45,125 nt of DNA from Haloterrigena salina JCM 13891 (GTDB taxonomy: Archaea; Halobacteriota; Halobacteria; Halobacteriales; Natrialbaceae): NCBI RefSeq assembly GCF_000337495.1, contig NZ_AOIS01000011.1, positions 142,292 to 187,416 of the forward strand, given 5' to 3'. A model generated the notes under the pieces. The model did not search any database. It was given only the letters and a program-made list of their open reading frames with translations, and was not told the origin of the DNA. Positions 234 through 3,485 of the stretch are shown here, piece after piece; within the stretch, counting starts at the first letter, position 1, and each line of letters starts with the position of its first letter. The position numbers and the translations under genes were made by a program.

Positions 234-302
234 CCAATTTCGAGAAAGAGTTAGCTATCGATCAACCGATTGTTTTTATCCGATAACCGAACCACGTGCG
301 GT

Positions 303-758
303 GTGCGCAACTCGAAGGAGATCGGTGATACGACTGAGTCGCGGGCGCTCGCGACGTTAGTCGCTTACGGACACAGCGTTTCAATTCCGTTCGGAGACAA
401 CGACAGATATGACCTCGTCGTCGACGACGGCGAGACACTCTACCGCATTCAGTGCAAAACGGCGTGGTCCAACAAGGAGCAGACGATACGCTTCAATACC
501 CACTCACAAACGACAAAAGACGGAACGTACCACGAACAGCCGTATCGGAACGATATCGATGCGTTCCTGGTCTATTATCCGGAAAACGAGCAGTTCTACT
601 GGATCAATGTGGCTGATGCAACCGAACAGAAGATGGAACTTCGGTTCGCGGCTGAAATCGATCATCCCTCTATAAACTGGGCGGAAACGTACGAGTTCGA
701 CGGAACGATCCCCGAACGGTCGAGATCGGAGAACGCTACCAGCCGTGACCGCGACTAG
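303..758 (+). CDS. PD-(D/E)XK endonuclease-like protein
   Basis: The product is about 151 aa and resembles the small PD-(D/E)XK nucleases often annotated as group I intron-associated endonucleases. The visible signature is an acidic strand YDLVVDD followed by YRIQCKT, where Q-C-K stands at the (D/E)XK position, in a short alpha/beta fold. A TTG at 270 would also open the frame. I prefer the GTG at 303 because the T-rich, TATA-like stretch at 271-279 would place transcription start near it, and because the protein then begins MRNSKEIGDTTE, a plausible family start. The gene lies directly beyond the duplicated tRNA-Asp end, consistent with a mobile-element remnant. Catalytic activity is not proven. 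Confidence 0.7.
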   Translation: MRNSKEIGDTTESRALATLVAYGHSVSIPFGDNDRYDLVVDDGETLYRIQCKTAWSNKEQTIRFNTHSQTTKDGTYHEQPYRNDIDAFLVYYPENEQFYWINVADATEQKMELRFAAEIDHPSINWAETYEFDGTIPERSRSENATSRDRD

Positions 759-843: not shown

Positions 844-2946
844 ATGACGAAACCGATCACCGTTCTCATCGTCGATAACGAACCGGGGTTCGCCGATCTC
901 GCCGGCGAGATGCTCGAGCGCGAACGCGATGCGATCGTCGCCGAGGCGGCGACGGATGCGACGGCGGCGCTCGAGATCCTCGAGCAACGAGAGATCGATT
1001 GCATCGTCAGCGATTACGAGATGCCCCGGATGACGGGGTTGGAGCTGTTGGAGCGAGTTCGCGAGGACGATCCGGATCTGCCGTTCATTCTGTTTACGGG
1101 GCGGGGCTCCGAGGAGATCGCCAGCGAGGCGATCGCGGCCGGCGTGACCCAGTACCTCCAGAAGGAGTCCGGCAAGGAGCAGTACGCGCTGTTGGCGAAC
1201 CAGATCACGAACGCGGTCTCTCAGTATCGGACCGAGACGGAACTGCGGGAGAGCGAGCGACGGTACGAGCGGACGCTGACGACGTTACACGAGACGACGC
1301 GGGATCTGATGCGTGCGGGCACGAAACGGGAGATCTACCAGTCGGCGGTCGATACGGCGGGCGAGATCCTCGACGTGCCCGTCGCCGCGGCGTACACGTT
1401 CGAGCCGACGGACGGGATCTTAGCGCACGCGGCGTCGATGCGAGAGTCGCGGGAACTCGTCGATCCGGAGATGCAGTTCGAGCAGGGCGAGGGCCACGTC
1501 TGGGAGGTGTTCTCGGAGGGGGAGAGCGCCTACTACGAGGACGTGACGCGGGACGCCGACACCAAGACGCTGAGCCGGAGCGAGCTGATCGTCCCGCTCG
1601 GGACCCACGGCGTGTTGGTCGCGGGCACCGAGGACATCGACGGCTTCGACGAGACGATGACAGAACTGCTGCACATCCTGGCGGCCAACACCGAGGCGGC
1701 GCTCGATCGGGCCGAGCGCGAGCAACTGCTCCGGGACCACGATCGGACGCTCACCCAGCAAAACGAGGAGCTGACGCGGCTCAACCACACCAACGAGATC
1801 GTTCGCGAGATCAATCACGGCGTGGCCCAAGCCTCGACGCGAACCGAAATCGAGACGACGGTCTGCGAGCGGTTGGCCGACACCGAACGATACTGCTTCG
1901 CCTGGATCGCCTCGAGCGACGACGAGCCGTCCGAGCCGACGGCGTGGGCCGGCATCGACGCGGCCTTTATCGACCGAATTCGCGACGACGGCGAGTGCGC
2001 GCCGGAGCACTCGCTGGTCGCGGAGACCCTCGAAACCGGCCGCGTGCAGATCGTCCGGAACGTCCTCGAGACCGACGGCTGGGATCGGCGCCGAAAGGAG
2101 GCGTTGACCTACGGCTATCAGACGATCCTGGCGGTCCCGCTGACCGATACCGAACGCCAGTACGGCGTCTTGCTCGTCCACGTGGCGGGAGTCGACTCGA
2201 TCGGCGACAGCGAACTGGAGGTGCTCGGCGAACTCGGCGAGACGATCGGCCACGCGATTCGATCGGTCGAGCGGACGCGAGCCATGCTGACGGACAGCCG
2301 ACTCGAGCTCGAACTCGCCGTTTACGATTCGCGACTGCTCTTGAACCGGTTTGCCGAGCACGTCGAGGGGACGGTGACCATCGAGGGGATCATCGAACGG
2401 GACGACGACGTCGTCATGTTCGTCAGCGCCCCTGAAACCGCCGATCTCACGCCGCTCGAGGAATGGGCGTCGCTCGAGACGATCTCGGTCGTCTCGGAAG
2501 GCGACGACGAGATCCTCTTCGAGGTGACGGTCACCTCGTCGCCGATCTTGGAGATCCTGCGGACCTTCGACGTCCAGTTGCGGACCGCGACCGCACAGAA
2601 CGGGTCGACGACGCTCGTCCTCGAGGTCCCCCAGCGGGTCGAAACCCGATCGCTGGTCGAAGCGATCAGGGAGGGGTATCCCGAGACGGAACTGGAGGCG
2701 CGACGCGAGACGACGAGCACGCGGTCGGCCCGACAGCTCGACACACACCTCGAGGAGCGGCTCACCGACAAGCAGTTCGAGGCGTTACAGGCGGCCCACT
2801 ACAGCGGGTTCTTCGAGTGGCCGCGAGAGAGCACCGGTGAGGATCTCGCCGACGCGCTCGACGTCACGCCGCCAACGTACCATTACCACCTGCGAGCGGC
2901 CGAACGAAAACTCGTTACGCTGGCGTTCGACGGCCACTCTAACTAA
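844..2946 (+). CDS. Bat-like regulator: receiver, two GAF domains, HTH-10
   Basis: This multidomain regulator has about 700 aa. An N-terminal response-regulator receiver (about 4-120) has acidic residues D11/E13, a phospho-acceptor Asp near 57 in SDYEMP, and a conserved Lys in QYLQKES. Two GAF-type sensor regions follow (about 165-300 and 330-470), each introduced by a coiled-coil stretch. The C-terminus (about 635-695, from LTDKQFEALQAAHYSGFFEW) is the HTH-10 domain of the bacterio-opsin activator family. It probably turns a phosphorelay or small-molecule signal into transcription control. An in-frame GTG at 811 sits about 27 nt after an ATTATTTAG element and could be a leaderless start. I chose the ATG at 844 because MTKPITVLIVDNEP matches receiver N-termini. 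Confidence 0.9.
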   Translation: MTKPITVLIVDNEPGFADLAGEMLERERDAIVAEAATDATAALEILEQREIDCIVSDYEMPRMTGLELLERVREDDPDLPFILFTGRGSEEIASEAIAAGVTQYLQKESGKEQYALLANQITNAVSQYRTETELRESERRYERTLTTLHETTRDLMRAGTKREIYQSAVDTAGEILDVPVAAAYTFEPTDGILAHAASMRESRELVDPEMQFEQGEGHVWEVFSEGESAYYEDVTRDADTKTLSRSELIVPLGTHGVLVAGTEDIDGFDETMTELLHILAANTEAALDRAEREQLLRDHDRTLTQQNEELTRLNHTNEIVREINHGVAQASTRTEIETTVCERLADTERYCFAWIASSDDEPSEPTAWAGIDAAFIDRIRDDGECAPEHSLVAETLETGRVQIVRNVLETDGWDRRRKEALTYGYQTILAVPLTDTERQYGVLLVHVAGVDSIGDSELEVLGELGETIGHAIRSVERTRAMLTDSRLELELAVYDSRLLLNRFAEHVEGTVTIEGIIERDDDVVMFVSAPETADLTPLEEWASLETISVVSEGDDEILFEVTVTSSPILEILRTFDVQLRTATAQNGSTTLVLEVPQRVETRSLVEAIREGYPETELEARRETTSTRSARQLDTHLEERLTDKQFEALQAAHYSGFFEWPRESTGEDLADALDVTPPTYHYHLRAAERKLVTLAFDGHSN

Positions 2947-3017
2947 TTAGTACCCATCTCTGGAAGACTCTAGTAGATTAGAAGCTATACTTACCACCTC
3001 CCGGTACATATGGGTAA

Positions 3018-3078
3018 ATGGCGATCTGCGATAGTCTATCGCCACCCCCAATCCCCCCACCCCCAACTTTCCCCCCTG
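3018..3078 (+). repeat. Hairpin/C-tract repeat, copy 1
   Basis: The element begins ATGGCGATCTGCGATA, forms the hairpin GCGATA-GTC-TATCGC and continues as a long C-rich run. A near-identical unit lies at 3428-3485. A TATA-like TATACTTA near 2986 would place transcription start close to the first base, so the unit may be the 5' end of a small RNA or leaderless peptide. Function is unknown. Confidence 0.6.
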
Positions 3079-3427
3079 ACTTACCGTCCGAGAGCCATCA
3101 GCGCGGTTCACTGTGGCGCTCGACCAACAATATCGTCGATCAGTCGCCATTGTACGCATCGATTGACTGTTCTCGTGAGCCCCGCGTTCGAACTGAGTCC
3201 AGCCGAGCGCAGACAGTTCTCGACGCGAGGCGGACGCCGACCGCCGTGAGCGAGAGCAATCGATCGCTACGCGCCTCGGTAGTCATCGATCGCGTCGGAC
3301 TCGAGCACCGCTCCGACGGATGCGTCTCGGTGACCCGCCTCCAGAATCTAAGTAATTAGATGAAACCATCATTGTGATGCTAATCACATAGTAAGTATAT
3401 TTAATCCCCCGCGGCGCGTACGAATTG

Positions 3428-3485
3428 ATGGCGATCTGCGATACTCTATCGCCACCCCAATCCCCCCCACCCCCCACTTCTCCCC
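3428..3485 (+). repeat. Hairpin/C-tract repeat, copy 2
   Basis: This is the second copy of the unit at 3018-3078. It differs mainly at the hairpin loop (CTC instead of GTC) and in the length of the C runs. TATATTTAA near 3397 lies about 30 nt upstream, the usual promoter distance. The copy ends about 40 nt before the stop codon of the leftward methyltransferase-like gene, so it could also act on the 3' end of that transcript. Confidence 0.6.

Follow-up and report, generated by a model that had tools for sequence, protein, structure and literature searches.

The two short units that begin at positions 3,018 and 3,428 of the window (the whole 45,125-nucleotide stretch of Haloterrigena salina DNA that was analysed) are probably genes for small RNAs controlled by the product of the gene directly upstream of them, a REC-GAF-BAT-HTH_10 transcription regulator; we give this reading, exclusive of the decoy step discussed below, a probability of about 0.75. 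In the proposed mechanism two tandem genes would give rise to non-coding RNAs of approximately 50-60 nt, each from its own promoter. The original prediction of twin small RNAs linked to a Bat-like regulator thus gains strong support from comparative genomics, in which the family, its promoter anatomy, the sharing of an operator and the synteny can be followed directly from genome to genome. As judged from openly licensed papers and Rfam, the units appear to represent an undescribed and well conserved family of sRNA genes for which a dedicated regulator is proposed. To our knowledge, archaeal sRNAs that belong to a conserved family, or whose regulator is known, are few; here the regulator, the operator, the RNA and the start site can each be predicted with nucleotide precision in dozens of cultivable haloarchaea, such that an archaeal regulator-to-sRNA circuit becomes directly testable.

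The paired units and their relatives

The two predicted sRNA genes and their parts are as follows.

3,017 to 3,070, plus strand: sRNA unit 1, predicted start at about 3,017-3,019
3,019 to 3,044, plus strand: hairpin of unit 1
3,045 to 3,065, plus strand: C-tract tail of unit 1
3,067 to 3,069, plus strand: T-run of unit 1
3,427 to 3,482, plus strand: sRNA unit 2, with its hairpin at 3,429-3,454, a C-tract tail and a short T-rich end

The head ATGGCGATCTGCGATA that had been claimed for both units is matched exactly at 3,018 and at 3,428, and copies of 97 nt (2,979-3,075 and 3,389-3,485) are 75% identical. Each unit is about 55 nt long and comprises a UGGCGA…UCGCCA hairpin, C-tracts and a T-run. 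A 24-nt hairpin pattern is matched twice in the window (chance expectation 0.00) and never in shuffled sequences, and both units out-fold all of 200 shuffles (z values of -4.0 and -3.4). A genome-wide search revealed no copies in the organism's own genome beyond those at 3,018 and 3,428; the units are hence not a dispersed repeat, and the hundreds of scattered copies that would have marked a simple repeat are excluded. The functional element exceeds the span originally assigned to it, beginning at the distal operators (2,939 and 3,348). Overall, the sequence comparisons strongly support the existence of a conserved, promoter-driven element.

A DNA search with unit 1 gave matches in 85 of 125 Natrialbaceae genomes, with Natrinema, Natrialba, Natronorubrum, Halovivax, Halopiger and others among the genera represented, and a profile search of the fetched loci identified 113 units at 85 loci, 57 of which have one unit and 28 two, with paired units spaced by 246-646 nt. 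The window units share the features that define the family, i.e. the UGGCGA/UCGCCA stem followed by C-tracts and a T-run. When a covariance model was applied to 293 genomes of the order, convincing matches were restricted to the Natrialbaceae; of the weak matches, those at loci L142, L150 and L153 were rejected as coding-like coincidences and those at L141, L143, L144 and L154 as unrelated elements consisting of a hairpin and a C-tail. The haloarchaeal matches listed in a pattern scan of 84,980 species comprise Natrialbaceae and one Halorubrum, the locus of which (L251) was the one inspected; the many bacterial matches listed are taken as chance, the pattern being short. With the Rfam 15 covariance models the sole match above the gathering score in the whole window was a tRNA at 8-80, and a search of the openly licensed literature gave no match for C-rich haloarchaeal sRNAs or for the regulator-sRNA pair.

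Divergent members of the family occur in genera g10 and g12, the former having a second unit at an unlinked locus, beside a thioesterase gene, with both operators kept. In one of the genomes with such an unlinked unit (G061) this second unit is directly followed by a gene for a hybrid histidine kinase (REC-PAS-HisKA-HATPase; locus L135, 790-2,823, minus strand), a suggestive, single case; in three genomes related to it the corresponding unit faces a gene for a Vut_1 transporter, as assigned by Pfam in one genome and by an ORF of the same length in two.

The family also bears on the proposal, likewise part of the original prediction, that the units encode leaderless peptides beginning MAICD. 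Although the ATG in the window is at the leaderless distance expected from the TATA box, 39 of the 113 units run only three codons before a stop, an ATG, GTG or TTG start is missing from 17 of 113, and the lengths of the C-tracts shift the frame freely, so that it is not kept. For the family, a micro-ORF is already refuted, and we accord it a negligible probability.

Promoters, operators and the adjoining regulator

The features surrounding the units are listed below (operators without strand; negative positions are relative to the hairpin).

778 to 789: perfect operator upstream of the regulator gene, CTAATTATTTAG
844 to 2,946, plus strand: gene for the REC-GAF-BAT-HTH_10 transcription regulator, 700 amino acids (PF00072, PF13185, PF15915, PF04967), the proposed sRNA controller
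2,939 to 2,950: distal operator of unit 1, CTAACTAATTAG, at -80, overlapping the regulator stop codon
2,970 to 2,981: proximal operator of unit 1, CTAGTAGATTAG, at -49
2,986 to 2,994, plus strand: TATA box of unit 1, TATACTTAC, at -33 to -25 (113-unit ungapped profile)
3,348 to 3,359: distal operator of unit 2, CTAAGTAATTAG
3,380 to 3,391: proximal operator of unit 2, CTAATCACATAG
3,396 to 3,404, plus strand: TATA box of unit 2, TATATTTAA
3,525 to 4,274, minus strand: pcm1, protein-L-isoaspartate O-methyltransferase (PF01135), convergent, the usual downstream neighbour

Ungapped alignment of the 113 units on TGGCGA gives an upstream profile with operators of the form CTAAN4TTAG at -80 to -69 and at -49 to -38, a TATA box (TATANTTAA) at -33 to -25, TA at -10/-9 in 99% of units and a purine at -2 in 93%; the proximal operator is present with at most one mismatch in only 76 of the 113. 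Both window units carry this family promoter, with operators at -80 and -49 and TATA at -33/-25, and the TATA-like boxes that had been noted before them are real, occupying -33 to -25 relative to the hairpin in the relatives as well. The arrangement fits the haloarchaeal promoter consensus of BRE, TATA and a -10 'WW' element (PMC4983044), and transcription is therefore predicted to start within about 3 nt of the hairpin. Since pcm1 is convergent, the unit is not the leader of a downstream gene; pcm1 itself is not thought to be part of the regulator-sRNA circuit.

The window units lie directly downstream of the regulator gene, and an orthologue of the regulator is found upstream of, and on the same strand as, the unit or units at all 82 scorable loci; the distance from its stop codon to the hairpin is exactly 72 nt at 53 of these 82 loci, and the distal operator overlaps the stop codon at 47. 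The translation of the window regulator shows that its receiver domain still has the acidic pair and the D, T and K expected of a receiver that can be phosphorylated. In 38 of 52 genomes the 250 nt that precede the regulator start contain a perfect operator, compared with none of 148 starts of neighbouring genes. The organism's own genome has only eight perfect operators, three of them at this locus; across the six genomes of the genus the number of perfect sites ranges from 3 to 8 per genome, with 2 to 4 of them at the locus, and in one sister species all three perfect operators of the genome are there. By these genome counts, the operator is nearly private to the regulator-sRNA locus. Two perfect off-locus sites (L211/L361/L370 and L212/L360, position 1501), in sequence common to several species of the genus, are possible minor members of the regulon; the TATA arrangement is absent at both.

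We propose that the REC-GAF-BAT-HTH_10 protein binds the paired CTAAN4TTAG palindromes just upstream of the BRE/TATA, that it controls its own gene via the same operator, and that it probably activates, rather than represses, the sRNA promoters, since sites just upstream of the BRE/TATA and 31 bp further up would suit an activator. An alternative, for which the few genomes that retain a unit without a close regulator orthologue speak, is that the operator belongs to another transcription factor and that the adjoining regulator is merely syntenic. Co-occurrence was examined in 12 genomes, most of them without a unit match. Unit and close orthologue are both absent from eight; two have a full-length orthologue (59-61%) and no match in the DNA search, yet a divergent unit lies right behind the orthologue; and the remaining two (G026 and G091), like G021, have a unit but lack a close orthologue. 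The presence of the unit and that of the orthologue thus largely agree, and G026, which is without the orthologue, has lost the operators yet retains the hairpin and the TATA box. Together with the marking of the regulator's own promoter by the operator, these observations make another factor unlikely and favour control by the adjoining regulator.

Upstream of the regulator gene, a gene for a PD-(D/E)XK nuclease-like protein (PF11645; window 300-758) keeps its position in many relatives. The tRNA gene at 8-80 has its 3' end and flank (GGTTCAAATCCCGCTCCGGGCGTCTTCTTCCGCGA), at 57-91, repeated at 198-232, some 140 nt further downstream, an arrangement reminiscent of an old integration site.

Predicted RNA anatomy and possible modes of action

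The predicted RNA consists of a 5' hairpin, with an invariant outer stem and a variable inner part, and a single-stranded tail of about three C-tracts that would end at the T-run. The outer stem UGGCGA/UCGCCA is present in the minimum free energy fold of 110 of the 113 units, and the inner part of the hairpin varies among units; the tail usually has three C-tracts, which are single-stranded in the predicted fold, and a TTT follows within 35 nt of the hairpin in nearly all units, the T-runs being short (3-4 T). The hairpin as first drawn, GCGATA-GUC-UAUCGC, is possible, but folding and conservation both favour the outer stem UGGCGAU...AUCGCCA; in 75 relatives 98.5% of the cells in the outer stem are paired compared with 81.3% in the inner stem, which was accordingly rejected as the conserved structure. 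Two-sided compensatory change in the outer stem was sought in the 75 relatives and never seen; being practically invariant, this stem has no covariation support, and its invariance could have an alternative origin in a DNA-level or protein-binding constraint. Covariation in the inner stem is weak.

The invariance of the stem without covariation, along with the G-tract-rich opposite strand, is what might be expected if the element acted as DNA, with TGGCGA...TCGCCA serving as an operator, the C/G-tract forming a block prone to G-quadruplexes, and no functional RNA being made. However, the BRE/TATA/-10 promoter puts the predicted start exactly at the repeat, with fixed spacing, in the 113 units; a T-run follows the repeat; wobble changes in the 5-bp inner stem of the g10 units (CAGCG/CGCUG) preserve pairing; and there is no co-directional downstream gene for such an operator to serve. 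We thus regard a purely DNA-level role as improbable, and transcription of the units into sRNAs as the better reading.

The sRNAs would act most probably via their C-tracts. The linkers between the tracts differ (AAT, TTT, TAA, A), whereas the tracts persist, and a search of the genome for an 18-nt complement with up to three mismatches found, besides the units themselves, a single poor site; the idea of an extended antisense target in the organism's own genome was dropped. Because the linkers vary freely and there is no long genomic complement, it is probably the C-tracts themselves that are recognised. With odds that we put a little short of even, the tail may titrate an RNA-binding protein that binds C-tracts, a mode that we prefer over pairing with short G-runs; if the C-tracts do bind protein, they would point to a class of RNA-binding regulator hitherto unknown in archaea.

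Pairing of the same sRNAs with mRNAs, in which the C-tail would engage G-runs in the manner that RsaA and RNAIII of Staphylococcus aureus engage Shine-Dalgarno sites, is possible without being probable. The tail is C-rich and unpaired in the fold, and there is precedent for C-rich unpaired motifs acting as seeds (PMC3961350). Against an antisense mode, however, the inter-tract linkers are not conserved, the organism's own genome has no extended complement, and the Shine-Dalgarno motif GGAGG is not complementary to CCCCC. Many haloarchaeal mRNAs are, moreover, leaderless, which also argues against it. The presence of several gene copies would fit either a decoy or a pairing RNA.

Known systems and other C-tailed elements

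In its logic the proposed circuit most closely resembles GacA-RsmY/Z, i.e. a receiver-domain regulator with one or two sRNAs as its main local output. With GacS/GacA-RsmX/RsmY/RsmZ (BarA/UvrY-CsrB/C) it would share a receiver-domain regulator, a palindromic upstream sequence, related sRNA copies and repeated short single-stranded motifs; in Gac/Rsm, several sRNA genes are recognisable by a palindrome upstream of them, and the repeated motifs of their RNAs sequester RsmA (PMC2375449, PMC7911923). Membership of Gac/Rsm nevertheless fails, because the archaeal HTH_10 regulator has another DNA-binding domain, because the two window units have no GGA motifs, C-tracts being their repeated motif where Gac/Rsm has GGA, and because RsmA/CsrA is not known here. 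The palindrome also differs, the RNA is about half the size, and the sRNA gene lies physically behind that of the regulator. It is conceivable, though somewhat doubtful, that the locus is an independently evolved archaeal counterpart of Gac/Rsm, in which a phosphorylatable receiver-HTH_10 regulator, acting through a nearly private operator, would drive its own gene and one or two C-tract decoy RNAs, and these would titrate an undescribed post-transcriptional regulator that binds C-tracts.

The sRNA132 of Haloferax volcanii is likewise an intergenic sRNA of a haloarchaeon that has its own promoter and lies in a conserved neighbourhood. By its published description it differs in distribution and neighbours, being reported from no genus but Haloferax, where it lies between two hypothetical genes and is linked to the phosphate regulon (PMC6560208). 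The S. aureus RNAs RsaA and RNAIII combine a hairpin with an unpaired C-rich motif that masks Shine-Dalgarno sites (PMC3961350); they are, however, bacterial, and a sequence relation to the units is not known. The regulator is, by Pfam (BAT and HTH_10), a member of the Bat/bacterio-opsin activator (HTH_10) family, from which it is distinguished by its N-terminal receiver domain and by a proposed output that is an RNA rather than an opsin gene.

In genus g65, of another family, a second and apparently unrelated element with a hairpin and C-tail (TGGCACAG...CTGTGCCACCCCCACC...) is present at the following loci.

L143, oriented 3002: g65 element
L160, 1501: g65 element
L161, oriented 1501: g65 element
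L163, 1501: g65 element

It has a TATA box of the TTTAT type about 27 nt upstream, and its loop-adjoining pair varies between A-U, U-A and G-U; its occurrence suggests that C-tailed RNAs of haloarchaea form a wider class. Three more elements with a hairpin, a C-tract and a T-run are found in genome G334, around the centre of each of loci L141, L144 and L154, and two of these have in common an upstream palindrome, TTGCCCC...GGGGC.
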